Assembly: GCA_018241725.1 (NCBI GenBank) | Contig: JAFEDI010000047.1 | Coordinates: 1-32,061 of the forward strand | Length of the DNA: 32,061 nucleotides | Direction of reading: 5' to 3' | DNA from: Pseudomonadota bacterium | GTDB taxonomy: Bacteria; Pseudomonadota; Gammaproteobacteria; Burkholderiales; Rhodocyclaceae | In this document: positions 1 to 20,659 of the stretch, in pieces | How positions within the stretch are numbered: the stretch's first letter is position 1 | Layout of the letters: each line of letters starts with the position of its first letter | Notes under the pieces: model-generated | Databases searched by the model: none | What the model was told of the DNA's origin: nothing | The model's input: only the letters and a program-made list of their open reading frames with translations | Program-made: the position numbers and the translations under genes

Positions 1-601
1 CAAGCCATGGCGTAAAAATAGAGCGCCCGTGAACAAGGAAGCGTGGTGGCTTTTACACTAGAAGGCGTCAATCTACCACAAGGCAAATCTATCACTTTAG
101 ACATAGATTAGCAGTCATTGGCATAGAGTGCTAACCCTGATGAGTTTACACCAAAGGCATAGCCAAATTCTCGATGTATAAGCACTGAACGGGCCTTCGC
201 GCACCTCATCCTGAGGGGCTTCGTTCGTACTTTACAAACGAGTAACTGGGTACTCGATGGCCGCAGCTTCGTAGAACGCCTTCGCAAACACCAAAGAACG
301 GGTCTGGCGCGCGCCCAAGCACCTCTGCCCCATGACCCACCCGCCGTCCTCTAGGCTTACTCAGTACGGCAGCCATCGGGCTACTCTCCAACCGGGCTCT
401 GCCCTCCCTTCTTCGTACGAGAAGCCTTACCGTTGTCCCCATGCCTCTCCTCCGCCACACGACACGCGAACCCGCACAAGAAATCCGTGTCCTAGCTGGC
501 GCCAGCTGCCGCTCAGGTTCCAGCTGGTTTTCTTGTGTGGGGCATTCGGGATGAAATCCGTCTGCCTGTTCCGTATAGGCCTTGAAGTGAGGACGTGTTC
601 G
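1..601. other. Region without a supported gene
   Basis: I see no convincing gene before the signal-peptide hydrolase that starts at 602. An open frame runs upstream of that start in the hydrolase frame, but its composition (rich in Pro, Ser, Arg and His) is not protein-like. A short coding-like stretch lies at about 43-111 on the plus strand and stops at an in-frame TAG; it may be a relic of a broken gene. The overall impression is decayed or mobile-element-derived DNA. Confidence 0.4.
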
Positions 602-1609
602 ATGCGATTGGGGATGTTGGCAGCCGGCTGGATTGCCGGTCTGGCGTTGGTGGGTGCAGCGCATGCGGCAGAAGGCGGCGTGTACGGTGCCGAGCTGGAA
701 GGGTTTCGCTATCCCTATCCCTTGGCCCATTTCTCATTCACATCCCAGGGGCAGGAACTGCGGATGGGCTACATGGATGTGCCTGCCCGCGGTGCCGCCA
801 ATGGCCGTACGGCGGTGCTGCTGCATGGCAAGAACTTCTGTGGGGCGACCTGGGAGGACACGATCACGGCACTCGCCGATGCGGGCTACCGGGTGATCGT
901 GCCGGACCAGATCGGCTTCTGCACCTCGACCAAGCCGGCCAACTACCAGTACAGCTTCCAGCAGCTTGCCGCCAACACGATGGCGCTGCTGAAGCATCTG
1001 GGCGCCTCCCGCGTCGTCGTTCTCGGCCATTCGACCGGCGGCATGCTGGCGACCCGCTTCGCCCTGATGTACCCCGATGCGGTCGAACGGCTGGCGATGG
1101 TCAATCCGATCGGGCTGGAGGACTGGAAGGCACTCGGCGTGCCGGCACGGACGGTGGACCAGTGGTTCGAACGGGAACTGAAGCTGTCCGCCGCGGGGAT
1201 CCGCCAGTACGAGCGGAGCGTCTATTACGACGGGCGCTGGAAGCCGGAATACGAACGCTGGGTGGACATGCTCGCCGGCCTCAACAGCGGGCCGGGACAC
1301 CGGCTGGTGGCGTGGAACTCGGCGCGGATCTACGACATGATCTTCACGCAGCCCGTGGTGTACGAATTCCCGCTGCTGAAGGTGCCGACGATCCTGATGC
1401 TGGGTGATGCCGACACCACCGCCATCGGCAGCGACCTCGCCCCAGCTGATGTCAAAGCGCGAATCGGCAACTATCGGCAGCTCGGCAAGACGATCGTGGC
1501 GCAGATTCCCGGCGCCCGACTTGTCGCGTTCCCGGGCTACGGCCACGCGCCGCAGATTGAGAACCCGGCGATGTTCAACCGGGCCCTACTCGACGAACTG
1601 GCACACTGA
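602..1609 (+). CDS. Exported alpha/beta-fold hydrolase
   Basis: This is a 335-residue alpha/beta hydrolase, probably periplasmic or secreted. I chose the ATG at 602 because a Sec-type signal peptide follows (hydrophobic residues about 4-20, AHA-type cleavage near residue 22) and a TGAGGA ribosome site lies 8-9 nt upstream. The longer frame from 332 adds 90 non-protein-like residues. Visible family motifs are HGKNF (oxyanion region, near residue 75), the nucleophile elbow GHSTGG with Ser144, an acid near Asp269/Asp271 (LGDAD) and His315 (GYGHAP). The substrate is unknown; the fold covers esterases, lipases, haloalkane-type and C-C hydrolases. It stands alone on the plus strand with no operon partner, and it is not in the set of genes carrying the XylS-like promoter repeats. 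Confidence 0.85.
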   Translation: MRLGMLAAGWIAGLALVGAAHAAEGGVYGAELEGFRYPYPLAHFSFTSQGQELRMGYMDVPARGAANGRTAVLLHGKNFCGATWEDTITALADAGYRVIVPDQIGFCTSTKPANYQYSFQQLAANTMALLKHLGASRVVVLGHSTGGMLATRFALMYPDAVERLAMVNPIGLEDWKALGVPARTVDQWFERELKLSAAGIRQYERSVYYDGRWKPEYERWVDMLAGLNSGPGHRLVAWNSARIYDMIFTQPVVYEFPLLKVPTILMLGDADTTAIGSDLAPADVKARIGNYRQLGKTIVAQIPGARLVAFPGYGHAPQIENPAMFNRALLDELAH

Positions 1610-1789
1610 AACAATTCGGGTGATCAGTTCCGAGCATCACGGAAGGTTTTGAGGAGCGCTCGCACGTCGTCGACCTCGCCGTAGAGAAGCTAGATAACGA
1701 TCACACGGCATGCACGCACCCATAAATAAATTTATTTACCGATAAATACAATCAAATCTGCCGCCCACATGCCAACGCTACTCTATGGA

Positions 1790-1859
1790 CTGTCTCCTCC
1801 ACCCTCCTCCTTTGGTGTGGAATTGAGCCCAGGCCCTTACTGCGCCTGGGCTTTTTTTT
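1790..1859 (+). ncRNA. Putative small RNA with twin anti-Shine-Dalgarno motifs, copy 1
   Basis: A transcript of about 70 nt is predicted from a weak -10 (TACTCT at 1779-1784, conserved in the second copy) to a strong intrinsic terminator. The terminator stem is AGCCCAGGC (1826-1834) with GCCTGGGCT (1844-1852), followed by eight T. The 5' part contains CTCCTCC twice, separated by ACC, so it is complementary to the Shine-Dalgarno consensus. From memory, Rfam has a family of toxic betaproteobacterial small RNAs with anti-SD character; membership is not verified here. No ORF is present. Confidence 0.55.
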
Positions 1860-1876
1860 GATACGCACGTATCGAA

Positions 1877-1892
1877 TACGGGTTATCCCGTA
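1877..1892 (+). promoter_or_regulatory. Palindromic operator at the second RNA promoter, copy 1
   Basis: TACGGG-TTAT-CCCGTA is an inverted repeat lying just where the -35 element would sit, 14 bp upstream of a -10-like TATGTT at 1907-1912. It is kept exactly in the second copy, where the arms extend to GTACGGG and CCCGTAC. It probably binds a dimeric regulator; the regulator is not identifiable. Confidence 0.5.
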
Positions 1893-1918
1893 CAACAAAC
1901 GAGATCTATGTTAGAGTC

Positions 1919-2033
1919 CCGCGCGATACGGAGGAGCGCAGGACGAGCATCAAGACAACTAACAGACAACGTTGCCTTCCTGCGGCTGGAGTGAGAGATG
2001 GGACTGCTCAGGGTGCTGGGCAGTCCCTTTTTG
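1919..2033 (+). ncRNA. Putative small RNA with GGAGGAG motif, copy 1
   Basis: Predicted transcript of about 115 nt from the -10 TATGTT (1907-1912) to an intrinsic terminator with stem GGGACTGC (2000-2007) and GCAGTCCC (2020-2027) followed by five T. It contains GGAGGAG (1930-1936), the exact complement of the CTCCTCC motif repeated in the neighbouring RNA. No start codon stands at a proper distance from that SD-like motif, so a non-coding role (for example a sponge for the neighbour) seems more likely than a leader peptide. The second copy conserves promoter, motif and terminator. Confidence 0.5.
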
Positions 2034-2040
2034 TTGCCTG

Positions 2041-2684
2041 GATTCAGATCCAGAAGGATGAGATACCGACAAAATTATCGCAAAAGCATACAAGCACTTA
2101 ATGTGAGGATTTCGAAAATTTACGTGGCAGAGAAAAGCCCCTCACCGCGCCCAAAAACTCACATCCTTCAGCACTCAAGACCCAATTTTCAGCGCGCACA
2201 ACCACGCTTTTCTGGTCAGTTTTCAACGAGCGTCAACACCTAGGAATGACCCAGGGGGCAAATACCCAAGCCTTTAGCGCGGACGGCACTGCATCACTTG
2301 CAGCCCTAGTGAAAAAGGACGAGCCTGTCCCTAGGGGATCATACTTTTTTGAGAACCGCGATGCAGTGTTATGGCCGTAGAGCCCACGAGAGCTACGTAG
2401 CAGGAGAACTTTTGAGCGACACATTAAGTGTTGCTTCTAGCCTTTTAGGAAGTATCCAAAGCAACTTGCTAAAAATGCCAAACAACTCTTTGCATTAACT
2501 TTTCCATCCTGCCATGTTTTTTGACCTCTGCAAGCACCTGATGGAAACCGACATTCCCTAGCGCTTCTCCGACAAGAGCGCGCTGTGCGACGGGCTAGCA
2601 AGGACAAGCCTCCACGCTTCTTGAGGGACTACCCGAAGTTCAGTAGAACTTGTCTCAGTTCACGTTCTCTACTTTTTTCGCTAA
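2041..2684. other. Intergenic region without a supported gene
   Basis: Short open frames exist on both strands but none has a credible ribosome site or protein-like composition. GC content is lower than in the catabolic half. No terminator, tRNA or repeat is obvious to me. Confidence 0.4.
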
Positions 2685-3071
2685 TCAGACTTTGATGATG
2701 ATGTCACTATAGAGCGCCACGATGGGATCGTGGGTCATCAGCCGCATGGGTTCGACAACTGCTTGGGCTACGAGAATCCGGTCAAACGGGTCTTGGTGAT
2801 GCGCAGCCAAATCTTCAACCGCTATGGCGTGTTCGGCCTCGACCACCAGGAAGCGATAGCCAGACTCGCGAAAGTAGCGCACCGCGTCCTGGCTCGATAC
2901 TGGCATGTCACCCCGCCCAAGCGAATGCTTAATGGCAATCTCCCACACACTGGCGACGCTGATCCAGACTGTCGTCTTCGGGGACTGGATCAATTCACGC
3001 GCCTTCTGCAGCAGCTTCGGGCTATCCGTAATCGCCCACAGGGCTACATGGGTGTCCAGCAGCAGGTTCAA
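2685..3071 (-). CDS. VapC-type PIN-domain toxin ribonuclease
   Basis: A 128-residue PIN-domain protein of usual VapC length, expected to act as a Mg-dependent endoribonuclease that blocks translation when its antitoxin is lost. The acidic active-site residues are in place: Asp6 (LLLDTH), Glu44 (VWEIAIK), Asp97 (DPFDR) and Asp115 (THDP). The start overlaps the stop of the upstream antitoxin by four bases (ATGA), the usual arrangement for co-translated toxin-antitoxin genes. It sits alone with its antitoxin in an accessory region, in keeping with a role in stabilising a mobile element. The target RNA cannot be predicted. Confidence 0.9.
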   Translation of the reverse strand: MNLLLDTHVALWAITDSPKLLQKARELIQSPKTTVWISVASVWEIAIKHSLGRGDMPVSSQDAVRYFRESGYRFLVVEAEHAIAVEDLAAHHQDPFDRILVAQAVVEPMRLMTHDPIVALYSDIIIKV

Positions 3072-3316
3072 GACTGCTCCCCGCCCATGAACAAGCGCGC
3101 CACTTCCTCGTTATGAGCATCAATGCTATCCGGCACCTCGAACTTGCCCTTGGCGACACCAATACGCTGTCCGACCGACACCGTATCCATCGGAACCAGC
3201 TTGGCAGCAGGGCGGCCATTGCGAGCAATGATGATTTCGCGCTCATGCCCCTGTTCGATGGCTTCCACCAAACGGGACAGCGAGGACTTCGCTTGCAACA
3301 TATTGACGGCCTGCAT
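3068..3316 (-). CDS. Phd/YefM-type antitoxin partner of VapC
   Basis: An 82-residue antitoxin of the Phd/YefM superfamily. The N-terminal half (MQAVNMLQAKSSLSRLVE) is the DNA-binding dimerisation region, followed by the family hallmark ARNGRPAAKLVP. The acidic C-terminal part (about residues 50-82) would wrap the toxin. I chose the ATG at 3316 because GGAGAG lies four bases upstream; in-frame ATGs at 3337 and 3328 lack such a site. It probably represses its own operon together with the toxin, as is usual in this family. Confidence 0.88.
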   Translation of the reverse strand: MQAVNMLQAKSSLSRLVEAIEQGHEREIIIARNGRPAAKLVPMDTVSVGQRIGVAKGKFEVPDSIDAHNEEVARLFMGGEQS

Positions 3317-3415
3317 CACACTCTCCATAAAGCACATTGTTAGTCTGGTCTAGCTAACCCCGAAGCGCAAGCGAAGATTAAGCCGTCAGCATCAGCAGGA
3401 CCACACCCCCCCTTT

Positions 3416-3850
3416 TTGACTGACGACGGGCCCCTCCATACTCGTCTCGTCACCCCCCTGAACCTCCTCGGCCTGCGAGTCTTGGACTTCACGGAAATCG
3501 GCCCCAACGCCCTGAAGCCCCTGTTCGGCCACGATATCGCCTCCTACCGCAAGACCGTAGCTATCCACTTGGATGTTCCGCGCTTGCGCTGGAAGCCATT
3601 CAACAAAACCTCACGGCAACGATGCCCGTGCTGACAGAATTCCGCTGCCCAGACGTGATCGTCGATAGCTCACCACAATGGCCGTAACGGTAATTTCCGG
3701 CACGCCATCGAGGTCGCCGAACGTGCCCGAGCCCTCGCCAGCCACCACACAGAAGCGCATTTGCCGGTGCTGATTGCCAGCAGTCTCCTGCACGATGCGG
3801 GCAAGGCCGAGGAATACGTTACCTGTTCGAGTTCGTCTTGCACTGCAGCA
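3416..3850 (+). pseudogene. Decayed HD-domain protein gene
   Basis: No intact frame is present, but conceptual translation from 3671 reads HHNGRNGNFRHAIEVAERA and, from about 3755, LLHDAGKAEEYV. This is the pattern of an HD-domain metal-dependent phosphohydrolase or exonuclease: a first His cluster and the HD doublet. Upstream, the same frame from 3416 is open to 3634 and is interrupted by stops at 3632 and 3656. An alternative frame looks coding at about 3598-3665, suggesting frameshifts, and the frame breaks again near 3817. Such domains occur in plasmid and integrative-element proteins, so it may be a relic of such an element. The exact family is uncertain. Confidence 0.4.
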
Positions 3851-4258
3851 CATCCAATTTGCGTTCCAGTCCTGCCAGCATAAAATGGGGTTATTACCTC
3901 AAATAAACGACCTAAGTCCAGAGCTTACTTCACATTTCATACAAATTTCAGGCAGGGGCATGCTCTCGCTCGGCTCATAGCCATGTCGAATAAAGGGGGT
4001 GGATGCATGACTCTGAGTTACTCAGGGTTGAGGGTGATCGAGTCGTCATCAAAGTGCTTGGGCTGATGTGCAAGGATAATGGCGCACGCCGCAGCCTATG
4101 GATGGGACAGGTAGCCACGGTGAATCCATCAGGATGAAAACGAAAAAAAGCACCCGGCTATTTTTCTTCCGCAGCAGCCCAAATAGCCCCCGCGCCAAAT
4201 AAAACCGGCAAAAAAACATGTCAGCATAAGCCATCACAACACATCTGGCGACAGAGAC
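3851..4258. other. Intergenic region without a supported gene
   Basis: Nothing convincing is seen between the decayed HD-domain gene and the start at 4259. Open frames here are short and have no good ribosome site. The last part (from about 4130) becomes A-rich and presumably holds the promoter for the next gene, but I cannot assign -35 and -10 elements with confidence. Confidence 0.35.
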
Positions 4259-5068
4259 ATGGCCAACCAAAATGACATTGAAGCCCAAATCAACCTAACC
4301 AAAGGTGACCCAATACTGATTATCGAGCAGCAAACAGTTATCGCCGTCACTCAGCTCGATGCCAATATTATTAGTGGCAATTTTGCCTCCATCAATTGGC
4401 AAAATCTACAAAGTATCGCTAACGGCATCATGTCGACCATATCGACCGCCGGAATCACCGATGAAAAAACACTCGAGGCACACGAAACGTTACGCCGCGA
4501 CCCGACAAGCAAGACAATATCGCCATGCGTACATATCTATTGCCAGCGCTCGCTCAACGAGGTCGAAAAAAACACGATCAGATCCCTATGTTTATACCAA
4601 TCATCATGCATGCTACAAGCGCCACTTTGCCGGACCGGCACCGATGATATGTTTAACAAACTCACCACGATTGATTTGACGGACCATCAAAAAGAGGCGG
4701 CAGAGAATGGAGCCCGCGCAGCCGTCGCAGCAGTCGGATCAAGACTAACTCATCCAATAGCTATTATTGACAGCCAAAAATCAAAAATTAGCGAGCTAGC
4801 TGGAAAAGTACAAAAACATCCAAAATCTCTTGTCAGCCCGACCGCAAACCGAATCGTTAATGCAATGATCGATCTGCTTAGCTACAGTCAATTCTCATTA
4901 AAACTGATAACTGAAGACGGAGAAATCGTAAATGGAAACTATGAGAATCATGAAGACTTTCCTAGTCTCGCAGAGCTTTTAAAGAATAGAAACATGCACC
5001 GATACGCCCTATTCGAGACAATCGCCGACAACGGTAGAAGCATGATATCAATCAGCCTTTCCGACTAA
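4259..5068 (+). CDS. Hypothetical protein convergent with the large recombinase
   Basis: I do not recognise this 269-residue protein. It has no signal peptide or clear membrane segment and appears soluble and cytoplasmic. It has a Cys-containing middle (CVHIYCQR near residue 90, then LCLYQSSCMLQAPLC), an Ala-rich stretch near 150 and a polar C-terminus. Base and codon use is clearly more AT-rich than in the catabolic genes, a sign of transfer. Its last 17 bases overlap the end of the convergent recombinase gene, so the two probably travel together as one element. The ATG at 4259 is the only reasonable start, though its ribosome site is weak. Confidence 0.7.
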   Translation: MANQNDIEAQINLTKGDPILIIEQQTVIAVTQLDANIISGNFASINWQNLQSIANGIMSTISTAGITDEKTLEAHETLRRDPTSKTISPCVHIYCQRSLNEVEKNTIRSLCLYQSSCMLQAPLCRTGTDDMFNKLTTIDLTDHQKEAAENGARAAVAAVGSRLTHPIAIIDSQKSKISELAGKVQKHPKSLVSPTANRIVNAMIDLLSYSQFSLKLITEDGEIVNGNYENHEDFPSLAELLKNRNMHRYALFETIADNGRSMISISLSD

Positions 5069-8000
5069 ATCCACCAACAATCTCCCCCAAAACGATGGAC
5101 ATCAAAAACTCCGCCCCATGTCGTATGGGGTGGTCCGTCTCACGGACAAGAATTGCAAGCCGATGATCGACTGTGAATTGGCCATCATCACCACACCTAA
5201 CAGTATCAATCTGGACTGCAGGACTTGACTTCTTGCAATCCTTAACTTCAAGTCCATAGGACTGGGCAGTGCTAATCAATTTCGACGAACACCTTGGCGA
5301 ATGCACAGCTAGCAATTGCTCATTGCCGATCCCCCACCAATTCAAATGATATTTCGCCGCCTCTAGATCCTCGGCAGTCCATAGAACAAGCTGCCGGGAT
5401 GTGGTTATTTTTGAGTACAAATGACTTGTACGGGCAATTTTAGCCACGCACCACCGTTTCCTAGCCCAGTCGATCCACTCATCCCACACGCTGTCGCTAA
5501 AGCGTGTGATCAACTGTGCCAACGATGGATACATCTCTAACATAGAGGGGGCAAAAGCCCGTTCAGAAGCACTAAATCTAAATCGGCCCGCCATATTGTC
5601 AAGTCGCTTATCAATTAGTTCAGCGACATTCTCATCAACGTCCAGCGCATCCGCTGCCACGTCTCGTGCAAACCCACGAGCGCGTAGCCGCAAATACATC
5701 AGGCTATCAGCCACCGTCAGACTCCGTACCTGTTGCCGCTCGGCGCCAGCTAGGATTACGGCACATGATGCGGGCGCATCGTCCAGATATTTCACCCCTG
5801 CAAGCCGTACTTCCTTTTCAGCATCCAAGGCGTTGTATTGATTACTCCAGCAATCCAATATATGCAGATAATACTCTTGCGTCGTCCCAGCATCCGCATG
5901 CCCCAAATACCGCTCGACGGCAGGGAGTGCCCGCCGCGTCCTTTCGGAGCTCCCCAAAAGTATGTTTTTTATTGTGTTAATCGACGTAGACTCACAGTCA
6001 CTCAATCCCAGTTCATCAACGCCAAAAACGCTCGCTGCAATAACATTGCCTGCACTATGTCGAGCGTGATGGACATTAGCTCGTGAATTACCTGTAACCA
6101 CGCGCAGCAAAGGGATCAACAACTTCCGCAAACGTGACGCAAACACTCTTCTTTTTCTACGCTCAATATTCGTAGCATCAATGCCAAACACTGGATAATT
6201 CGAGTCACCTCCACCTTGCGCTTCTGCCTTTGCCATCATATTTCTGATTAGCTTTACTTCTCTTTCATCCAAGTCCGCAAGCAAGGGGACCAAACGGCGA
6301 GACGACTTATTTGTTTTCAGCTTCCTCAGCTTGTTATTTCTTACAATAACAATCAATCCAAACTCTGGATCTCCAACGATGTCCTTGCGTAAAAGTCCAA
6401 GACTCTCACCGACGCGAAGGCCAAATCGATAGGCAAATAACAATAGGAGCGCAGCGAGCTTAGCAGTCTCGTCACCCGCAGATTTTTCAAGATAAGAAAA
6501 AACACGGAGGTACTCCGCCTCCGACACAACGCCGGGATTGGCATTCAGAGATTTGTCAGCTCCTGCGACAAGAGACCAGTCAGGCTCCTCCACAGATTTC
6601 TGCCAAAGAAGCCAGTCGTGAAACTCTTCAAGGCGAAGTCGACTATAGCGTTGCGATTTGGGAGGCACATCATCAATAATCGATGCGTAGACTTCGGTTA
6701 TCTCGTCCTCATCAAGCTCTTCAATTTCTATATCGGGTGCAAGCTCGACTATATATTTCGATAGAGCACAAAGATAACGCTCTACCGTCGAAAGGCTCAG
6801 ATATTGATCTCGATGTTGATTCTGCCTGGTCAGCAAATGCGCAGCCCAATGGGCCAACAGGCAGACCATTGAGCCCGGCTCCCCTACAGCCTCGGCAACC
6901 AATTCCCTAATACCCACCGCACGTTCATCGCGTGCCAGCCGACGCGAGCCTTCTTTTTCGCCGAGGAGATGCACAATCGCACCGATCAATTTGCGATTTG
7001 CCTGTTGCCGTCGATCCGGACCGACTGAGGTATTAACAGCCAGCGACACGCTCGCCGCGGGCATTTCCTTCTGCTGCGGCGAATCCGCCTCTTTCACCAA
7101 ATACCCGAAGTCACGCACATGACCATCTTGCAAACGGGTAAAGTCATACCAATTGAGTGACAACGACTTCACACGTCCTGCCAAATAGCCCGCAACAATA
7201 CCTGGGCGGCTGACTGCATTAACTTGGTCGACCAATCTCGCGGTTGCCAAGACAAGCTGTTCAACGTTGGCAATTCCTGAAGCGCTCGGAGAGTGGCCCT
7301 GGATGCAATCAACCAACGGGTGGAGATTTTGATCAATCGTCCTTTTCCCCGCATTGTTGGCCCGTTTCCCCGTCAGCCCTGCAGCCAATAGACGCGCGGC
7401 CGCTTGACTGATCTCAAGACGACGACATAATGCATCCGGCCCTGCTTCGGCGATTTTCTCCCCAAGTTCTATGTACGTTCGATCGCGGAAGCCGATAACG
7501 CGATAGTTCTCTCCAGCAAGGATGTCTCGTAAAGCATCCCCATCCGTCAACCTTGACTCAAGCACCAACCTCAGCACGCCAAGCGCCAACGCCTGCCCCA
7601 ACGCTCGCGGCAGATAAGCCGGTTCAGGCACTAAGCTCATCAAATTCGCCAAGCGTTGATACGTACGGTAGGCGCCACACGCCATGGGCGTAATGGCGCT
7701 AGGCTCATCCGTAAAGGCCAGATATACCCTTCGCATGCGAATAGGCCGCAACTGCCTTTCTTGGGCTCGCTCAAGCTGTCTCAGAAAAACAGCGTATCGC
7801 AGTGACCCAAGCGCATGGGGGATACCGTTGGGATTAAATACGAGCGCGCGGCTCAGTTGGTCGATCTCGTCTGTCGTAAGCTCGCCGATTTGACGCCCAT
7901 CGCAAACGGTTTCGATCATCATCCGAGCCCCCTGCACCGCGCCGCGCAACCGCTCTCGACGCCGTATCGCACGTTCGGCTCGCCCAAACAGCACTGGGCC

Positions 8001-10457
8001 TTGCTGGTCGGCAACGCGAGGGACTAGGTTCTCCAAGGGCGTGGACTCCAAATGTCGCGAAATCCTGACGGGTCTGAACCCAAGACTGGCGAAACATGAC
8101 TCCAGGGCCGGTCGGGCGGCCGTCATGTCCTCCAACCAGACACGCTCAGAGCGATCTCCATACGCGGCACTCCCCCGCTCAGCGTGACCCAGCAAACCAT
8201 CGATGATCTCGGGGTTCAGTTCGGCGGATCGCAGCTGCCTTGCGAGCCGGTGACGCAAGTGTCGGAGGGGTAGAGGCCACGTAAAAACCCCCGCATTTGC
8301 AATCCCTGCCTCACTGCATGGCTCCCACTCGAGCGACTTCCCATCGAGGCGCAGCATGAAGAACAGCGGCACAGATGGAGTGCCATCTCGGGTAGTGACA
8401 GCAACGACCCGACGCCCGAGCTCGGAGTCGCCACTCCTTTCTATCCAGAGCCCCAGCGATCGCAGATAAGGGAGATATTGTTCTGCGAGAAAGCTACACA
8501 GTCGTCGTGGCAGCGGCACAAGGCGTCCTGATCGCGACGCCCCACTCACCTTGTCAGCAACAAAAGCCGTTCCAGCATCCAAGTCAAAATCCCTGAGCGT
8601 CTCGAATGGTGCTCGGATGGGTCGAGCACCGGACGCCGCGTGTAGTGCGACGACCAAGTAGCTCGTGAGCGCGTTGTGATACTGGAATACATCCTTGCCT
8701 CGCAGGTGACGTAAGGCATGAGCGGCTCGACGTATCTCCCTACGTAGAAGCGACTCAATAGGATCAAGTCGGCTACCCAACACATTTGAGGTGGATAGGG
8801 CTCCGTCAAGCACCGGGACTGGGAGACCTGCACGACGGAGGGTGGCGGCGAGTTCACTACCTGTCCAGCTTGGATACGCCGCCGCACCTGGCAGTCCAGT
8901 TTGAGGATGGCGCGCGTAGAGGCGCGCGAGGATTGCATCCTTCGTTGTGGTGTAAAGCTGCGAGGGCAGTACATTGGCAAGCATGCCGGCGGTCACGCGC
9001 GGCGCGACCTCCTGCATGACCTCCCGGAACCGGCTTGACAACACCTGTGCCGGGAGCAGATCCCCCAAGACGGTCGGCGATACGGGTAGCAATCGCTCGA
9101 TACCGGCGGCAAACACCCCGGCCACCTCCTCAGGCAACCGAAGCTCATAATGGGCGCTCAACGCTCGAACCCAGCGGGCTTGGTCATCAGTTGGGCTCCA
9201 ACCTCGGCTGGGGCGGGCACTCGCGCGTAACAGTGCCCCCGATGACGCAATCGACCATTCTTCACCGGCACTATCCGACAGCCTCATGGCAAGGACTCGG
9301 GCGAGAGAGCGCCCGGTGTTGATTGCGATCCAGACAACGGCAGCAAGCAGTTGGTCCTCTGCGGCACTCGTCTTTAAAGCTGTCGCAATCCATGCTTGGA
9401 TGTCATGCAGTTCCCCGGGAGTGAGGCGCGACCAAGTCCAAGACAGGAACTGGTTTTCTTCAAGGGTACTGAGGAGGATTGATGAAGCGTATTTGACTTG
9501 GCCAGCGAGCGTTGCATCCTGAGGTACGCTCACACAGACCAGATCATCGTCACGGCCCCCAACGAGCTCAAGGCCCGATGACGACGCGTCGTCATTGTCA
9601 TAGAGCAAAGCAGGGAACACCGGCGCAGCGGCATGCAGTTGCTCAATCCTTGTGTGCCACAAAGTGGCGTCGAAAAGCTGTCCACGTAAAGGCCCAGCTG
9701 CAGCATGGTCTTCCCGCAGCGCAACCTGGCTCAGCGCACGCAAGAATGCTCGAGCGCTGGATTCCAACTGCTCAGATCGTAGCTGTACCGCCACGCGGAC
9801 ACATATTTGGGCGTCGAGCGCGTAGGGGTCTCGGGCTGTTAGCCGCAACGAATTCAGGATGTCTAGCCAAGCAGCCTTGCCATCACCTGCAAGTCTTAGC
9901 CGGGTTGCAACCTCTCGGACAGCCGAGTCGAGGAGGATCCCCCTCTCTGCACGTTCAAGCGCATGCACAAGCAGCCACAGCCGCAGGCGGTCATACCCGG
10001 CCCGCCCGACAGTGTCACCCGACGCATAGGGGTTACGCGTCGCCAACAAGGCATAGAGGTACTGGGTATCCAGTCCGCCCTCAAACCGGGCGCGGGCCGG
10101 CAAAGCATCCGGTAGCGGCCGATAGTGTTCAAGTACATGTTGCCCGGCGACGGCCAACCGGTGCGCCAAACTCCACAACAGTCCTGCATGCGCGTTCTCG
10201 TCAGCCCACAACTCCAGGTCGTTGAGAATGCCGGGCTTAACGATGTAGTGCAGGATGGATCCGACAGCCCCGGGCCGCTCGACAGCGGCAGTCGCGTCGC
10301 ACAACAGCATGACAGGAGGCAGCAGATCTTCGGCACCTGCCCACTTGTACAGAACATCCCACGTAGCCACGGGGGGAGCAGGAGTCGTTGCAAAAACCCG
10401 ATTGTCCAGGTCTAATGGCGCGGCTTGAGTGGGCTGCAAGGACTTAGAGAGAGGCAC
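5052..10457 (-). CDS. Giant protein with two tyrosine-recombinase domains
   Basis: A 1801-residue protein, several times the usual 300-500 residues of a phage-type integrase. A first catalytic domain is visible at about residues 590-770: Arg612 (SGARPIR), RHLRH with Arg735 (His position replaced by Arg732), LGH with His758, and Tyr766. A second lies at about 1310-1535: Arg1348 (GLRVGE), His1463 and Arg1466 (HHARH), LGH with His1520, and the nucleophile candidate Tyr1529 (TTQEYY). Before the second core, residues about 1200-1290 resemble a SAM-like core-binding domain. The N-terminal 550 residues and the C-terminal 260 match nothing I know. It likely cuts and rejoins DNA to move the element it sits on. 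The gene begins close to a tRNA-Arg fragment, as integrases often do. Confidence 0.8.
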   Translation of the reverse strand: MPLSKSLQPTQAAPLDLDNRVFATTPAPPVATWDVLYKWAGAEDLLPPVMLLCDATAAVERPGAVGSILHYIVKPGILNDLELWADENAHAGLLWSLAHRLAVAGQHVLEHYRPLPDALPARARFEGGLDTQYLYALLATRNPYASGDTVGRAGYDRLRLWLLVHALERAERGILLDSAVREVATRLRLAGDGKAAWLDILNSLRLTARDPYALDAQICVRVAVQLRSEQLESSARAFLRALSQVALREDHAAAGPLRGQLFDATLWHTRIEQLHAAAPVFPALLYDNDDASSSGLELVGGRDDDLVCVSVPQDATLAGQVKYASSILLSTLEENQFLSWTWSRLTPGELHDIQAWIATALKTSAAEDQLLAAVVWIAINTGRSLARVLAMRLSDSAGEEWSIASSGALLRASARPSRGWSPTDDQARWVRALSAHYELRLPEEVAGVFAAGIERLLPVSPTVLGDLLPAQVLSSRFREVMQEVAPRVTAGMLANVLPSQLYTTTKDAILARLYARHPQTGLPGAAAYPSWTGSELAATLRRAGLPVPVLDGALSTSNVLGSRLDPIESLLRREIRRAAHALRHLRGKDVFQYHNALTSYLVVALHAASGARPIRAPFETLRDFDLDAGTAFVADKVSGASRSGRLVPLPRRLCSFLAEQYLPYLRSLGLWIERSGDSELGRRVVAVTTRDGTPSVPLFFMLRLDGKSLEWEPCSEAGIANAGVFTWPLPLRHLRHRLARQLRSAELNPEIIDGLLGHAERGSAAYGDRSERVWLEDMTAARPALESCFASLGFRPVRISRHLESTPLENLVPRVADQQGPVLFGRAERAIRRRERLRGAVQGARMMIETVCDGRQIGELTTDEIDQLSRALVFNPNGIPHALGSLRYAVFLRQLERAQERQLRPIRMRRVYLAFTDEPSAITPMACGAYRTYQRLANLMSLVPEPAYLPRALGQALALGVLRLVLESRLTDGDALRDILAGENYRVIGFRDRTYIELGEKIAEAGPDALCRRLEISQAAARLLAAGLTGKRANNAGKRTIDQNLHPLVDCIQGHSPSASGIANVEQLVLATARLVDQVNAVSRPGIVAGYLAGRVKSLSLNWYDFTRLQDGHVRDFGYLVKEADSPQQKEMPAASVSLAVNTSVGPDRRQQANRKLIGAIVHLLGEKEGSRRLARDERAVGIRELVAEAVGEPGSMVCLLAHWAAHLLTRQNQHRDQYLSLSTVERYLCALSKYIVELAPDIEIEELDEDEITEVYASIIDDVPPKSQRYSRLRLEEFHDWLLWQKSVEEPDWSLVAGADKSLNANPGVVSEAEYLRVFSYLEKSAGDETAKLAALLLLFAYRFGLRVGESLGLLRKDIVGDPEFGLIVIVRNNKLRKLKTNKSSRRLVPLLADLDEREVKLIRNMMAKAEAQGGGDSNYPVFGIDATNIERRKRRVFASRLRKLLIPLLRVVTGNSRANVHHARHSAGNVIAASVFGVDELGLSDCESTSINTIKNILLGSSERTRRALPAVERYLGHADAGTTQEYYLHILDCWSNQYNALDAEKEVRLAGVKYLDDAPASCAVILAGAERQQVRSLTVADSLMYLRLRARGFARDVAADALDVDENVAELIDKRLDNMAGRFRFSASERAFAPSMLEMYPSLAQLITRFSDSVWDEWIDWARKRWCVAKIARTSHLYSKITTSRQLVLWTAEDLEAAKYHLNWWGIGNEQLLAVHSPRCSSKLISTAQSYGLEVKDCKKSSPAVQIDTVRCGDDGQFTVDHRLAILVRETDHPIRHGAEFLMSIVLGEIVGGFSRKG

Positions 10458-10544
10458 GTTGGGCTAGGGCTGGCGATCGATGATCTGCACAGCCTAGCAT
10501 CTACACCCCGTTTTTGCAGGTTGTAGACCTAATGTTGAAGTTTT

Positions 10545-10564
10545 TGTGCGTATAATGCGCACAG
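10545..10564 (+). promoter_or_regulatory. TATAAT box within an inverted repeat
   Basis: A perfect -10 hexamer TATAAT (10,551-10,556) sits inside the inverted repeat TGTGCG ... CGCACA, just upstream of the tRNA fragment. No matching -35 is seen at 16-18 bp. It may be the surviving promoter of the truncated tRNA gene or a recombinase-binding arm. Confidence 0.35.
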
Positions 10565-10570
10565 AGATGG

Positions 10571-10616
10571 CGTACCCTCCGAAGGGTCGGACGTTCGAAT
10601 CGTCTCGGGCGCGCCA
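10571..10616 (+). tRNA. 3' fragment of a tRNA-Arg (CCG) gene, likely attachment-site remnant
   Basis: The stretch contains an anticodon-loop-like CCTCCGAAG, a T-arm (GGACG-TTCGAAT-CGTCT) and a 3' acceptor CGGGCGC followed by G and CCA at 10,614-10,616. The 5' acceptor and D-arm are missing, and about five bases between anticodon loop and T-arm appear deleted, so it cannot be functional. It is followed by a terminator, as a tRNA gene would be, and lies 114 bp from the recombinase start. That is the typical layout of an att site left by integration into a tRNA 3' end. Confidence 0.5.
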
Positions 10617-10644
10617 AAACACAGCGGAAACAAGCATTAAACTC

Positions 10645-10680
10645 AATGGGTTAGGTCTAAGAAACCTAGCCCATTTTGTT
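10645..10680 (+). terminator. Intrinsic terminator after the tRNA fragment
   Basis: Stem AATGGGTTAGGT (10,645-10,656) pairs with ACCTAGCCCATT (10,664-10,675), followed by TTGTTTTT. It would end transcription of the former tRNA-Arg gene. Confidence 0.7.
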
Positions 10681-10997
10681 TTTGGCCCATCCTTGGCCAA
10701 ATTCGGCCTACCTCTGGCCTACAACCTCTTCCTCGCGAAAGGGCTTTTCGCCCTCTCACTCTCCGTAGTCAAGAGTTCTGGACAGCCTCAGCCTGCGATT
10801 GCAGGCCAGTTACGTCGATTACGAAGGCAAAGAGCCAGAGCCGATCGAGCCCTTGCGCCGACAAACTGCCGACAGGGCCAGCAAGTATCATCCCAGCAGT
10901 GTTTTTCCACTGAAAGTCACACATCTTTGATAATTAAATTTATCAATGAATAAACACAATAAAATCAGTCGCCAACAAACTGACGTTACTCTTTCCC
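10681..10997. other. Intergenic region without a supported gene
   Basis: No gene is supported here. A small hairpin (GCGAAAG-GGC-TTTTCGC, near 10,735-10,752) is visible. The last 70 bases are AT-rich and resemble the sequence upstream of the first small-RNA copy (near 1725-1780), so the promoter region was duplicated with it. Confidence 0.4.
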
Positions 10998-11064
10998 CTG
11001 TCTCCTCCACCCTCCTCCTTTGGTGTGGAATTAAGCCCAGGCCCCAAGGCGCCTGGGTTTTTTT
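10998..11064 (+). ncRNA. Putative small RNA with twin anti-Shine-Dalgarno motifs, copy 2
   Basis: Counterpart of the RNA at 1790-1859. It has the TACTCT -10 candidate at 10,987-10,992, two CTCCTCC motifs identical to copy 1, and a terminator with stem AGCCCAGGC/GCCTGGG followed by seven T. The terminator loop differs from copy 1 but the stem is preserved, which argues for selection on the RNA. Confidence 0.55.
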
Positions 11065-11080
11065 GCTTTTGACTCATGGA

Positions 11081-11098
11081 GTACGGGTTATCCCGTAC
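11081..11098 (+). promoter_or_regulatory. Palindromic operator at the second RNA promoter, copy 2
   Basis: GTACGGG-TTAT-CCCGTAC, seven-base arms around TTAT, overlapping the -35 position of the promoter whose -10 is TATGTT at 11,112-11,117. It is the same operator as at 1877-1892. Confidence 0.5.
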
Positions 11099-11123
11099 GA
11101 AAAACAAGATTTATGTTAGAGTC

Positions 11124-11236
11124 CCGCGCGATACGGAGGAGCGCAGGACGAGCATCAGGACAACAACAGACAAGGTGCCTTCCTGCGGCTGGAGTGAGAG
11201 ATGGGACTGCTCAGAGTGCTGGGCAGTCCCTTTTTG
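11124..11236 (+). ncRNA. Putative small RNA with GGAGGAG motif, copy 2
   Basis: Counterpart of the RNA at 1919-2033: same -10, same GGAGGAG (11,135-11,141), and a terminator with stem GGGACTGC (11,203-11,210) and GCAGTCCC (11,223-11,230) plus five T. Indels between the copies fall in the unpaired middle and would not keep any reading frame, which supports a non-coding RNA. Confidence 0.5.
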
Positions 11237-11304
11237 TTGCCCTGCGGCCGATCTGGCTCAAGCCCGGATGAACAATGCTGCGGTCCTGCAGACCTTGCTC
11301 AAGC

Positions 11305-12177
11305 TCAACTCGGCGCTAGAAACGACAATGCCAAGCTATTGAACTTGCTTGCATGCTCCCACTGAGCCCAATGGCCACAGCTGTTGAAGATGTGCATTTC
11401 GGCTTTCTGGATCCCCACCAGCAAGCGCAGACCAAGATCCAGGGGGACGAACCTATCCTCCCTGCCCCAGACGATCAATGTTGGCGCGATGATTTCATTA
11501 AGCCGGCTCCCCTGATCCGGAAACTGTCTCGGATTGGCCTGGAGACTGGCCACGAAGTTGCTTAGATGCACCCGGTTCCCGAGCATGTTGGCCAGGCGTG
11601 AGCGGAGGAGTTCTTCAGTCAAACTGCCTGGGTCATAGACGAAGATGTCCATCATCCGCTTCAGGTTGTCGATTGTCGGTTCCCGATAAAGCGCATTCAG
11701 GCAACGGATGCCTTCCGTAGGCATGGGAACGAGCAGGCTGGCGCCTCCGGTTCCTCCCCCCATCAAGATCAGTTTATTGACCCGTTGCGGAAATGCGAGG
11801 GCGAAGGCCACCGCGCTGTGTGCCCCCATCGAGTTTCCGATCAAATGTGCGGACGCAATCTGCAGACCGTCCAACAGCGCACGCAGGGTATCCGCATTGA
11901 GTTGAGAGCGAGAGCCAGTCGAAACAACCGGATCGCTTTTTCCCCAGCCTAGACAATCCATCAGAACGACCCGATAACCCGCACGGGAGACAGCTTCTAT
12001 ATTCCGGTGGAAATTGGCCCAACCAGTTGCTCCCGGGCCCGAGCCGTGAAGCATCACCACCACCGGACCGTTGCCGCCCGTGTCATTGAAATGCACCCGG
12101 TACGGATCCCCATTGAGACTGATCTGCATGAAGCGGCTCGTTTGCTCATCTGTCAGGGCCGGGATGGATTGAATCAT
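11305..12177 (-). CDS. mhpC: 2-hydroxy-6-oxonona-2,4-dienedioate hydrolase (meta-cleavage product hydrolase)
   Basis: A 290-residue C-C bond hydrolase that splits the ring-fission product made by MhpB-type dioxygenases into 2-hydroxypentadienoate and a dicarboxylic or other acid. The match to E. coli MhpC as I remember it is close along the whole length: [13 protein letters not shown] near residue 44, the nucleophile elbow GNSMGAHSA with Ser116, acid Asp241 (GREDRFVP) and His269 ([10 protein letters not shown]). The start has AGGAGG seven bases upstream. It is transcribed divergently from the dehydrogenase-cupin-mhpB operon, an unusual split, and its promoter carries tandem XylS-like half-sites. 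Confidence 0.93.
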
Positions 12178-12209
12178 GTGAATGCCTCCTCGATGTGATC
12201 ACGAAATGG

Positions 12210-12273
12210 AGTCTAAGCCCTTGATACTTCATGGATCATATCCGGAGAGCGAAGCACCTATCCCGGTAGCGCA
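12210..12273 (-). promoter_or_regulatory. mhpC promoter with tandem XylS-like half-sites
   Basis: On the minus strand TGCG-CTACCG-GGATA (12,273-12,259) and TTCG-CTCTCC-GGATA (12,253-12,239) lie 20 bp apart. A -10-like TAGACT (12,215-12,210) follows after 23 bp. Known XylS half-sites have the form TGCA-N6-GGNTA in direct repeat. The predicted transcript starts about 25 nt before the ATG. Confidence 0.6.
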
Positions 12274-12369
12274 GGGTTCTGCGAGATAGGGCCAGACGCA
12301 TCATTTCTGGCATTCGATGCGGACTTCAAGCCACAAGCAAATCCACAGCAGACAATTCATTTTCATTCA

Positions 12370-12431
12370 TGCGTTGGGCGGATAAGCCGGGCATTACGTG
12401 GAGTGCGCAACAAGGAATACCCCAATAACTT
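12370..12431 (+). promoter_or_regulatory. Dehydrogenase-cupin-mhpB promoter with tandem XylS-like half-sites
   Basis: TGCG-TTGGGC-GGATA (12,370-12,384) is followed 20 bp on by a weaker GGCA-TTACGT-GGAGT (12,390-12,404) and, after 21 bp, a -10-like TAACTT (12,426-12,431). The geometry equals that of the three other promoters of the cluster. Confidence 0.5.
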
Positions 12432-12494
12432 CATGTCCGCACTCACCGGGATCCCGCTCGATCCCAACCACCAAGAAATAAAAGGAGACAATCA

Positions 12495-13598
12495 GTGCGA
12501 ATGATGAAAGCCGCTCGTCTGCATGAAATTGGCGGAAAATTCCAAATCGACGAAGTCCCTGTGCCGATGCCAGGACAGCACGATGTTCTGATTAAAGTTG
12601 CATCATGCGGAATCATCCCCAACCTTCGGAACGTGGTCACCCATTTTCCGACCTGGTACCCCTTCCTGCCACTGCCAGCACTGCCGGCGATATTCGGCCT
12701 GGATGCGGCTGGAACTGTGGCTGCCGTTGGCGAAGGAGTTGGTTCCTTCAAGCCTGGTGACCGGGTGTACGTCAATCCCGGGGTTGGCTGTGGGGAATGC
12801 CGCCACTGCAAGCAGGGCGAGCCCACGCGCTGTGAGAGCTACACGTTCATGGGTTATTTCGGATTCGGGAGAGACTCCCAATCCGTTTTCAGGAAGTACC
12901 CCTATGCAGGATATGGCGAATACACCGTGGCGCCCGCGGCCAATCTGGTCCGCCTTCCGGAAACCATGCGGATCGAGCACGGGGCACGCCTTGGCTACCT
13001 GGGGACAGCCTACTCAGCCATTCGCAAGGCGAACCTGCGTCCGGGACAGGACATTCTCATTCTCGGTGCAACGGGAACGCTCGGCGTCGGAGCAGCGCTG
13101 TTGTCATTGGCCTTCGGTTCCGGCCGCGTCATTGTCGCGGGCCGGGATCCCGCCGCACTCAAACGCCTGGTGCAATTGGATCCACTGAGAGTGATCCCGA
13201 TCTGCTGGAGCGATGGACCTATTCACGAGCAGGTGCGCACACGGATCAAGGACGGGGTCGACGTCATGCTCGACGCACTCGGCGCGAAAGCCTCGGTGGA
13301 TCTCTCGATCGATGCAATGCAGGCCGTCACCCGCGGGGGACGCATCGTGCAGATTGGCGGCGTGGCCGGGCCGATTCCAATCGATCCCCATCCTTTCATG
13401 TGTGCGCAACACCATTACATCGGCTCCCTCTGGTTTACGCCTGCCGAGGGCGACGAAATGGCCGCCATGATTGCGGCAGGGACGGTGGATCTGGGCATCC
13501 TCGAGCCCCGGCCTTACAGCCTCGAAAAGATCAACGAGGCCCTGGAAGACATCGAGCGGCACGGCAACGGCTTCACGAATTTCCACATTGCCTATTAG
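12495..13598 (+). CDS. Medium-chain (MDR) alcohol dehydrogenase-like oxidoreductase
   Basis: A 367-residue medium-chain dehydrogenase/reductase that would oxidise an alcohol or reduce an enone/aldehyde with NAD(P). The Rossmann motif GATGTLGVG lies at 191-199 and a structural zinc lobe at Cys99, Cys102, Cys105 and Cys113. Of the catalytic zinc ligands only Cys38 is evident: the usual GHE reads GLD (69-70) and the third ligand region reads RLGYLGTAY. GTG at 12,495 is preferred because AGGAG is seven bases upstream; the ATG at 12,501 is possible. It is first in an operon with the cupin and mhpB. The substrate is unknown, probably an intermediate of the same aromatic pathway. Confidence 0.85.
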   Translation: MRMMKAARLHEIGGKFQIDEVPVPMPGQHDVLIKVASCGIIPNLRNVVTHFPTWYPFLPLPALPAIFGLDAAGTVAAVGEGVGSFKPGDRVYVNPGVGCGECRHCKQGEPTRCESYTFMGYFGFGRDSQSVFRKYPYAGYGEYTVAPAANLVRLPETMRIEHGARLGYLGTAYSAIRKANLRPGQDILILGATGTLGVGAALLSLAFGSGRVIVAGRDPAALKRLVQLDPLRVIPICWSDGPIHEQVRTRIKDGVDVMLDALGAKASVDLSIDAMQAVTRGGRIVQIGGVAGPIPIDPHPFMCAQHHYIGSLWFTPAEGDEMAAMIAAGTVDLGILEPRPYSLEKINEALEDIERHGNGFTNFHIAY

Positions 13599-13607
13599 TC
13601 CAATGCC

Positions 13608-14162
13608 ATGCCCCTTACTCGTATCGTCACCGGACACGATCCGTCCGGGCAGGCCGATCTCCAGATCATCGGCACGCCACACAACTCAGGCCCTTTCGAG
13701 CACACACCAGGCTTCTCGGCTGCGTGCATATGGCACACGTCACCAGCCCCGGTAATCGAGCCGACACCACGGGATGAAACCTCAGTATTGCGCTCAGTCC
13801 TGCCGGAATGCGGTGGCACAAGTGCCTTGATGGTCACTTTCCCACCCGACGATCAGGTCATGGGCCCGGACTTCAATCCCCAAAAAGCCGCGAAGGAGTT
13901 TGGCGAACGACTGCCAGGTCTTGCCGAGAGTTTTGAACCCGACGGTTCGGGATACCACGCGACCACTACGATCGATTACGGCGTGCTCATCGAGGGCGAA
14001 ATCGTACTCGACCTCGGTAATGGGCGAGAGAGGTCGCTCCGGCAAGGAGATGTAGTGGTTCAGGTCGGCACCCGCCACGCATGGAGAAATCACAGCACTC
14101 GCCCCGCGCGCATGTTCTTCGTGCTGATCGGGGCAAAACGCCCCGGCAAGGAACAGCCATGA
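13608..14162 (+). CDS. Cupin-domain protein
   Basis: A 184-residue protein with a single cupin barrel in its C-terminal half. The first metal motif is near residues 117-135 (His117, Glu129 candidates; [13 protein letters not shown]) and the second near 147-161 (GDVVVQ, then GTRHAWRN with His157 and Asn161). The N-terminal 70 residues are unassigned. It begins nine bases after the dehydrogenase stop and its stop overlaps the mhpB start by four bases (ATGA), so translation is probably coupled. Cupins of this type can be small-molecule isomerases, dioxygenases or binding proteins; which one applies here is open. Its place directly before mhpB suggests it acts on the ring-cleavage substrate or product. 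Confidence 0.85.
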
Positions 14163-15112
14163 AAGCAATGCTCCAGTGCATGTCGCACACGCCCCTGAAG
14201 GGCTATCTGGATCCCGCGCCCGACGTCGTGACGGAGGTCTCCAACTGCGTCAGCACCGTGCGCAAGGAAATTGAGGCATTCGATCCGGAGATCATCTATC
14301 TGTTTGCGCCAGACCACTTCAATGGTTTCTTTCTTGATCTGATGCCACAGTTTTGTATCGGCATGGTGGCAAGCTCGGTTGGCGACTATGCGACGCCGGT
14401 TGGCGCACTGCACGTTCCCCAAGCACTGGCGGAAGCCTGCGCGGAAAGCGTGATCGAATCCGGGATCGATCTGGCCTTCTCATATCGGATGCAGGTCGAC
14501 CACGGATTCACGCAAAGCCTGATCGAATTGACTGGAGGGCTCAATCGCTACCCGGTGATTCCCATCATGCTGAATGCAGTTGCTCCGCCACTGGCAACAT
14601 TCCGCCGGGTACGCCAATTGGGCATCGCGATCGGGAATTTCGCTCGCAGCCAGAACCACCGCACGCTTTTTCTGGCATCGGGGGGCTTGTCCCACAATCC
14701 ACCGATCCCCAGGATCGCGACGGCAACGGACCCTGAAGTCATTGAACGCCTCATTGCAGGACGGAACCCAACCCCTGCCGCACGGGCCGCCCGACAGCAA
14801 CGCACGATCGATGCGGCACGCAGCTTCTCTGCCGGCGGCAACGACTTGCACCCGCTGAATCCCGAGTGGGATCAGACATTCATGGGGCGACTTTGCCAAC
14901 AGGACTGGCCAGCCATCGATGCATATGGCAATGCCCAGATAACAGCGGAAGCAGGGGCCTCGGCACATGAAGTACGTGCCTGGGTTGCCGCAGCGGCGGC
15001 AATTGATTCCGCTTCAAATGGCAATTGGTCTGGACAGCAGAACTATTACCGCGCCATTCCAGAATGGGTTGCAGGTTTTGGTTCCCTTTCTGGCCAAGGG
15101 CTTGCTCAATAA
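14159..15112 (+). CDS. mhpB: 2,3-dihydroxyphenylpropionate 1,2-dioxygenase-type extradiol dioxygenase
   Basis: A 317-residue class III (LigB-type) extradiol dioxygenase that opens a catechol ring next to the hydroxyls with Fe(II) and O2. It matches E. coli MhpB (314 residues as I recall) end to end. His115 (MQVDHGF) and His179 (SGGLSHNPP) are the family's acid-base residues, [10 protein letters not shown] lies near 49-58, and [12 protein letters not shown] closes the protein. The ATG at 14,159 overlaps the cupin stop (ATGA); the longer frame from 14,081 is not needed. The real substrate may be a substituted catechol other than dihydroxyphenylpropionate, since the usual hydroxylase mhpA and the lower-pathway genes mhpD, F and E are absent from the window. 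Confidence 0.93.
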
Positions 15113-15153
15113 GCGGATACCGGAAGATTTGACGCCCCCAAAAACAAAGAGAC

Positions 15154-15190
15154 GCCGGCCATCCTTCTGCAAAGATGGCCGGCATCCCTT
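15154..15190 (+). terminator. Terminator of the dehydrogenase-cupin-mhpB operon
   Basis: Stem GCCGGCCATC (15,154-15,163) pairs perfectly with GATGGCCGGC (15,174-15,183), followed by ATCCCTTTTG. It ends the operon 40 bp after mhpB. A-rich sequence on the other side would also allow weak function on the minus strand. Confidence 0.8.
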
Positions 15191-15300
15191 TTGAATCCTC
15201 GAAGGGCGCCAAAGCCGCTCAAAAGATCCAATCAACATTATTCCAAAAGCAAAATCACTGCTTGAATTAAACATATCTTCCCAAGCCCAAAAAAATCCCC

Positions 15301-15363
15301 TGCGTCCAGTGGACAGTTCCTGCACTAGCCGGATAGTCGCCCCCCTCTCCCGATCCTTAGATT
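15301..15363 (+). promoter_or_regulatory. Membrane-module promoter with tandem XylS-like half-sites
   Basis: TGCG-TCCAGT-GGACA (15,301-15,315) and a perfect TGCA-CTAGCC-GGATA (15,321-15,335) are 20 bp apart, with -10-like TAGATT (15,358-15,363) 22 bp further. Transcription would start near 15,370, leaving only eight bases before the GTG at 15,378 and so favouring the ATG at 15,426 as start of the next gene. Confidence 0.6.
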
Positions 15364-15425
15364 GACGCCATGTTCTGGTGGCCCGAATTCACGGGTTTCC
15401 TTCACCCAACTGGATATCACGACCT

Positions 15426-16481: not shown

Positions 16482-16547
16482 AACGCGCCATTCCCGCTCA
16501 TTCGCACTCTCCTTCCCACGACTCATCACTGTTCGGGATCCAAAATC

Positions 16548-18914: not shown

Positions 18915-18924
18915 GCCTTATGCG

Positions 18925-18947
18925 CTGGCGGGCGCTCTGCCCGCCAG
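18925..18947 (+). other. Intercistronic hairpin between RND and DUF1302 genes
   Basis: Stem CTGGCGGGC pairs with GCCCGCCAG around GCTCT, without a T-run behind it. It is not a terminator by itself; it could stabilise the downstream or upstream mRNA segment and set the relative dosage of exporter and outer-membrane protein. Confidence 0.5.
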
Positions 18948-19013
18948 CCGGCTCCCATTGTCTTCAATCCGCCGGAGAACCGGCACAACCCCCCAGCAAT
19001 CCAGGAGAAGTAA

Positions 19014-20639: not shown

Positions 20640-20659
20640 CCCCTATCGGAGCCAACACC

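Follow-up and report, generated by a model that had tools for sequence, protein, structure and literature searches.

A protein with two tyrosine-recombinase-fold domains at the end of a tRNA-Arg island, and its possible partnership with a third recombinase

The contig JAFEDI010000047.1 of a Rhodocyclaceae bacterium (assembly GCA_018241725.1, here G000) was analysed over its whole length of 32,061 nucleotides; this stretch, which is the entire contig (C93), is referred to as the window. Its minus strand carries a gene for a recombinase of 1801 residues (5052..10457, GTG start at 10457), which begins 119 bases from the end of a genomic island in tRNA-Arg(CCG). Residues 1–558 (8784..10457) gave no significant match in the family search and are largely helical in the AlphaFold2 (AF2) model. 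They are followed by an N-terminal recombinase-fold domain, residues 559–806 (8040..8783), with conserved R612, K636, R735 and H758, and by a helical region, residues 807–1188 (6894..8039), which corresponds to the start of a separate gene in relatives where the two halves are split. The C-terminal catalytic domain, residues 1189–1559 (5781..6893), holds R1348, K1381, H1463, R1466, H1520 and Y1530, and a C-terminal region, residues 1560–1801 (5055..5780), completes the protein. We refer to the two halves as N and C, and to homologous loci and genomes by L and G numbers.

The original prediction had read 5052..10457 as a single frame with two tyrosine-recombinase catalytic domains, to be given up if only one of the regions scored as a recombinase or if a sequencing error proved to have merged two genes. 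The frame of 1801 codons is genuine and not a product of chance: the plus strand of 5052..10457 has stops throughout, the frame is open on the minus strand only, and a simple stop-codon estimate puts the chance of so long an open frame at 4.6e-31. Zoogloea sp. LCSB751 encodes a protein 100% identical to that of the window. When the window was compared with its nearest homologue, L076, over residues 181–1795, a coding pattern was found in all five segments tested; the third codon position differs at 60–68% of codons and the second at 19–24%, with an excess at the third position in every segment, an amino-acid identity of 56–65% and a non-synonymous divergence (dN) of 0.29–0.39. These comparisons indicate that the 1801-residue protein is under purifying selection along its length.

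Matches to the protein were found in 18 of 298 relatives' genomes and in 8 of 274 genomes of the class, its own genome being counted in both; with a profile of the N half, matches were obtained in 14 of 369 genomes from the class and in 21 of 398 from the phylum, again with its own included, a number of them weak (E 1e-4 to 1e-3). Longer profiles place both halves in one open frame in 17 of the 47 fetched loci that have an N or C match (the window, L046, L055, L076–L082, L084, L094, L141–L144 and L149, the fused frames of L084 and L149 having only a partial N part), and domain profiles show L140 to be fused as well. Ten fused homologues that were aligned are 19–58% identical to the window protein, so that the full-length relatives that the original prediction had proposed to look for do exist. 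The halves are two genes in 21 further loci, where the N gene extends to the end of its recombinase domain or close to it; taking the first possible C start, the C frame begins before the N stop in 20 of the 21, with overlaps of 1–133 bases, and is separated from it in L090. Matches are weak for N in L047 and for C in L157 and L158. A tree was calculated for the 38 of 47 loci with both halves (leaving out L049, L084–L089, L149 and L156, and counting the insertion-interrupted L083 as fused). It contains a well-supported clade of eight fused proteins that includes the window; parsimony gives four changes between split and fused forms (three to five in bootstrap replicates), of which the well-supported branches force only one, and several branches are long. 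We take the window protein to be a fusion, in its lineage, of two recombinase-fold proteins encoded elsewhere by neighbouring, mostly overlapping genes. A joining of two genes by sequencing error is ruled out by the LCSB751 copy, the divergent one-chain homologues and the coding pattern. Not all copies of the fused gene are intact: insertions break it in L076 (between 10847 and 11662), where the first ~180 residues are in a separate frame past the insertion, and in L083 (7765–9364).

Catalytic residues were counted in the same 38 loci, with unaligned cells left out of the denominators (L141 could be scored at the first two N positions only, and L143, L157 and L159 are without the last C positions). 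In the C domain the signature is close to invariant: R 38/38, K 37/37, the His of HxxR 35/37 (replaced by Tyr in L143 and L144) and its Arg 37/37, H 35/35 and Tyr 35/35, the full R-K-HxxR-H-Y set being present in 34 of the 35 loci that can be aligned to the Tyr. All nine residues named in the original prediction (R612, R735, H758 and Y766; R1348, H1463, R1466, H1520 and Y1529) are at those positions, with the correction that the invariant Tyr is Y1530, ten residues past the last His and one past the Y1529 that had been proposed. Pfam finds PF00589 in the window protein here only (residues 1313–1476, E 1.2e-10). The AF2 model of the C half (986 residues) has a predicted local distance difference test (pLDDT) value of 83 and a predicted template modelling score (pTM) of 0.79; Foldseek against the PDB returned nine matches with E below 0.001, led by XerH at 4e-5, and all 50 shown of its 106 matches belong to tyrosine recombinases or related proteins, with XerH, Tn1549 Int and an integron integrase at the top. 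By its residues and its predicted fold, the C domain is a complete tyrosine recombinase.

The N domain presents a different picture. Four positions are as well conserved (R 38/38, K 38/38, R 37/37 and H 36/37), and residues 560–830 are the most conserved segment of the protein in comparison with 9 of the 11 homologues comparable over both domains (the exceptions being L082 and L094). The His of HxxR is found in none of 37 loci; 27 have Asn in its place, 4 have Arg and 6 another residue. At the nucleophile column, Tyr occurs in six of 37 loci, namely the window (Y766), L076, L077, L079, L080 and L083; the others have W (11), F (6), H (4), L (3), E (3), Q (2), I (1) and G (1). No N domain therefore carries the complete catalytic set. 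This column is eight residues past the last His, compared with ten in the C domain, and in the AF2 model of the N half (826 residues, pLDDT 81, pTM 0.61) Y766 lies within a loop of modest confidence preceding the next helix. Foldseek placed a Staphylococcus aureus integrase first among PDB matches (E 0.03, probability 1.00). No match reached an E value under 0.001, and those shown, 50 of 101, are all tyrosine recombinases or DNA topoisomerases at E 0.03 or weaker. PF00589 was recognised in 4 of the 31 N halves searched alone (best 8.9e-6), the window's not being among them. Thus, searching the two regions separately, as had been proposed, gave a Pfam match in the C domain and none in the window's N half, and recombinase-like models for both. 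The expectation of two tyrosine-recombinase-fold regions in one chain is borne out, and the first set, which had been called less canonical, is degenerate across the family; that both domains are catalytic does not agree with a nucleophile Tyr in 6 of 37 N domains as against 35 of 35 C domains. On the conserved residues and the model, the N domain has the recombinase fold, and it is probably a conserved, non-cleaving domain; we read it as a fold that would still bind DNA and in which cutting is no longer needed.

The position of the gene at an island end could be defined by comparison with related genomes. Positions 1–10620 of the window match an LCSB751 contig at 99.99% with one gap, and 1..10576 is the right-hand part of the island, cut at position 1 by the start of the contig. 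The right end itself (attR) is a displaced 3' piece of tRNA-Arg(CCG), running from the anticodon loop to CCA on the plus strand (10577..10616), beyond which 10617..32061 is flank outside the island. The sequence CTCCGAAGG at 10577–10585, the anticodon loop plus GG, is the core common to the island ends, and the two sides of the anticodon stem are an inverted repeat that encloses the 7-base loop. A congener without the element (G294) has an intact tRNA-Arg and provides the empty site: its flank on one side is 92.8% identical to another contig of the window's assembly, C117, to just beyond the tRNA end, and on the other side 93.1% identical to window 10584–20528, in a comparison that spanned 19.9 kb and left 20529–32061 outside it. 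Therefore the window holds the right island end and C117, which is unjoined to it in the assembly, the left end with the intact tRNA. An intact tRNA at one end, a displaced 3' piece at the other and an empty site in a relative are the features of a tRNA-integrating island. With up to two mismatches, the tRNA 3' sequence occurs in two copies in each of G000 and LCSB751, one of them being the intact tRNA.

Of 44 upstream stretches, 10 have the same core at a distance of 73–130 bases from the start of the coding sequence (the window and L002, which are one element, L076, L077, where the contig ends at the core, L080, L081, L083, L085, L086 and L089). A T-loop scan of the 44 matched eight, the window, L002, L076, L081, L085, L143, L150 and L151, the last three being, by eye, pieces of other or more distant tRNAs; a tRNA remnant is thus seen in 13 of 44. 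The remnant in L076 has the host's own T-arm and is therefore displaced host sequence. In LCSB751 the same island end (L002 9837/L042 ~5153) abuts a tRNA-Asn-Gly-Lys operon and not the tRNA-Arg flank, for which a deletion, a rearrangement or another site could account. Two repeats were also seen: a 317-bp direct repeat, 86% identical, has one copy in the island (window 1722–2038) and one in the host flank (10930–11241), both matching the Betaproteobacteria toxic small RNA RF02278, and a 152-bp stretch, 94% identical, occurs in each of the two known parts of the G000 island (L039 3047–3198 and window ~3670–3820).

A third recombinase, INT, is found at the opposite end. In each of the five genomes searched with PF00589 (G000, LCSB751 (G290), G292, G280 and G337), an integrase lies 0.7–0.8 kb away from the intact tRNA-Arg. 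The INT proteins that could be read have 412–428 residues, the G337 protein being incomplete because the fetched stretch ends within it, and PF12167 together with PF00589 in 13 of 13 members identifies them as arm-type integrases. Members 48–59% identical to that of G000 adjoin six split pairs. Among the fetched loci, a profile finds INT together with N or C on one stretch in 14, and in 9 of these the genes face inward. Among the 298 relatives, at an INT threshold of E <= 1e-90, INT is present in 17 of the 18 genomes with N/C compared with 12 of the 280 without (Fisher 4.4e-19, kinship uncorrected), and in the remaining N/C genome, G283, a contig end truncates the INT gene, leaving a fragment. 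INT and N–C face inward on all nine contigs of this set that hold both, 10–74 kb apart (L094 and L076 are common to these nine and the 14 fetched loci; tRNA ends were not called for G378, G423, G443 and G456). A further INT, facing otherwise, lies just beyond attR in G292 (L076 13221–14483), which suggests tandem islands in the same tRNA.

Taking the genes and ends together, the explanation that we favour, and hold to be somewhat more probable than its rivals combined, is a tRNA island with three recombinases in which INT and the C–N unit face each other across the cargo and a cutting and a non-cutting recombinase, fused in the window's lineage, act together. INT stands beside the regenerated tRNA and the N–C unit is transcribed inward from the other end; both would act on the same attachment (att) site, which would lie between them in the circular form. 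The C domain would cut and rejoin DNA while the N domain would occupy the partner half-site without cutting, so that each fused chain would supply a subunit that cuts and one that holds, their ratio and order being fixed. A covalent half-synapse, such as the original prediction had envisaged, is on this evidence more likely with the N domain as the non-cleaving partner. The fused protein as sole integrase is weakened by the presence of INT at the tRNA end.

Several observations weigh against this explanation. An integrase such as INT, acting alone, is the usual enzyme of such islands, and N–C need not act at att. The window's own copy has Y766, and the profile comparison of N with C halves is weak (P 0.092 and 0.026). 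INT and the N/C genes run in one direction in L150 and L155, an INT lies past the N start in L144, L157 and L076, and the attR core of G337 lies 13 kb away from the fused gene. No INT was found within 8 kb of two plasmid copies, and no N/C in 12 of the 29 INT-positive genomes. The co-occurrence of INT with N/C is not independent, both because the INT profile was derived from INT genes that adjoin N/C units and because G000 and LCSB751 share one element; the N/C survey, with a single query and at most two candidates per genome, was less sensitive than the INT search, so that N/C units may be missed. No tRNA remnant is seen in 31 of the 44 upstream stretches, and several remnants fall short of a clean half tRNA: the window and L076 lack five bases of the native tRNA, L080, L083 and L086 have lost the T-arm, and L089 is without the 3' end. 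We take the missing bases to be decay after integration.

In the first alternative, N–C would have no role at the att site in the tRNA; the island would be moved by INT alone, and N–C would maintain the circular form, by dimer resolution or segregation, or regulate INT. The complete arm-type architecture of INT and its occurrence without N/C in 12 genomes fit this, as do the two plasmid copies without INT nearby, on a Vibrio and a Ketogulonicigenium plasmid, which consist of a split pair and a small upstream gene; the plasmid records annotate the N/C genes as integrase/recombinase or hypothetical. In 11 of the 21 split loci N is immediately preceded by a gene of 158–226 residues that has a relative in another locus and appears ParB-like by eye, although two that were tested have no Pfam match. 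What speaks against N–C being a bystander at att is that the N frame starts 73–130 bases from the tRNA-Arg core where the core is seen, that the orientation is fixed on all nine contigs and that a single genome of 18 has N/C without INT, where INT is truncated. We consider this alternative unlikely.

A bolder form of the favoured explanation takes the N–C chain as a machine with a built-in non-cutting subunit, in which every chain would place its cutting C domain and its holding N domain on one core site, so that the element, together with INT, would exchange only part of the att strands and the junction would be finished by INT or by host replication; the islands would then be a widespread unnamed class of tRNA islands with three recombinases. 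It would explain why R, K, R and H are kept without a nucleophile and why the N domain is the most conserved segment. We regard it as unlikely.

We find it distinctly improbable that N–C is the complete integrase of one element and that INT belongs to a second, adjoining element in the same tRNA. tRNA-Arg is a hotspot, the second INT of G292 lies just past attR, and G295 has two copies, one split and one fused, for a single INT at the threshold applied, all of which would suit two elements. Against them are the inward orientation and the co-occurrence, the gap of about 60 bp between INT and the C gene in L048, which leaves little room for an att site, and the finding of only two tRNA 3' copies, one in the intact tRNA, in G000 and LCSB751. 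Finally, that both domains are catalytic in the window's lineage, the covalent tandem being half a tetramer, is very improbable, since the six Tyr loci and the strong conservation of the N domain are offset by W, F, H or another residue at this column in the remaining 31 of 37, Arg or Asn for the HxxR His in the six themselves, the shorter His spacing and the modelled loop around Y766.

A convergent partner gene of 269 residues on the plus strand (4259..5068) shares 17 bases with the end of the recombinase frame and has homologues in the same place in L076, L077, L084 and L087; when a single partner family for all loci was considered, the profiles of seven further downstream genes or groups matched at P 0.033 at best. 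A PIN-domain gene (PF01850) on the minus strand at 2685–3337, with an 89-residue frame before it, resembles a toxin–antitoxin pair. In the LCSB751 island a CBASS-like defence set (CD-NTase, HORMA, TRIP13, a TIR effector and an exonuclease) lies beside the region shared with the window (L041 9756–13810).

Pfam and NCBIfam searches with the window protein and its relatives returned general recombinase families and none more specific, in agreement with the original remark that no described family of this architecture was known. Identity with GmtXYZ, the gamma-mobile-trio, was dropped, as no such model was among the NCBIfam matches of the window protein and 15 relatives' proteins; the models are presumably in that library. 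A literature search for fused or two-domain tyrosine recombinases, inactive partners and three-recombinase islands, with subscription papers mostly outside it, found no description of this architecture. The following comparisons are by published description. The GInts (Tn6571 family; Bardaji 2017, PMC5385486) are likewise site-specific islands with variable cargo, defence genes included (PMC10121019), and three integrase-like proteins, one of which (GinC) is short of a catalytic residue; their ginABCD genes, encoding three integrases and a small protein, are one operon at one end, whereas here INT is opposite an inward-facing N–C, fused or paired. Excision and integration of GInts need all four gin genes, including GinC without its first arginine (PMC5385486). 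The strand-biased circularizing integrative elements (SEs; PMC10214605, PMC9345347) have two active recombinases and a recombinase-fold Tfp without the catalytic motif, in one intA-tfp-intB-srap operon, with imperfect inverted terminal repeats, and tfp-srap blocks are reported from Gammaproteobacteria only; here the gene order differs, the target is a tRNA, genes are at both ends, and active and inactive partners are fused. By analogy with the required GinC and the motif-less Tfp, a required inactive partner is plausible here.

Islands with IntBPP-1 (DUF3596/PF12167; PMC8138268) share the INT–tRNA end, the displaced 3' tRNA piece and the empty site, and differ in that the present islands have an N–C recombinase unit at the far end. 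In Vibrio natriegens a 30-kb CRISPR-Cas island at tRNA-Met has three integrases, one beside the tRNA (PMC6360697); as described, this layout would fit INT, N and C, and the island may be a member. Tsy and TnsF (PMC10293859) also bring two recombinase-fold proteins together, TnsF of Tn6022 being an inactivated recombinase, as separate genes with another domain layout that target comM, compared with tRNA-Arg here; ZooTsy comes from the same strain, LCSB751 (PMC10293859).

If the favoured explanation holds, tRNA islands of ordinary appearance carry a second, very large recombinase unit at their far end, and the layout of INT, cargo and N–C would be a rule for locating both island ends. The conserved loss of the nucleophile with retention of R, K, R and H would be a natural test of how many active sites are needed in a four-site synapse, and the fused chain, in fixing the order of the subunits, would be useful for structural work. 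Were the partial exchange of strands also true, these islands would be the fused counterpart of the strand-biased elements.

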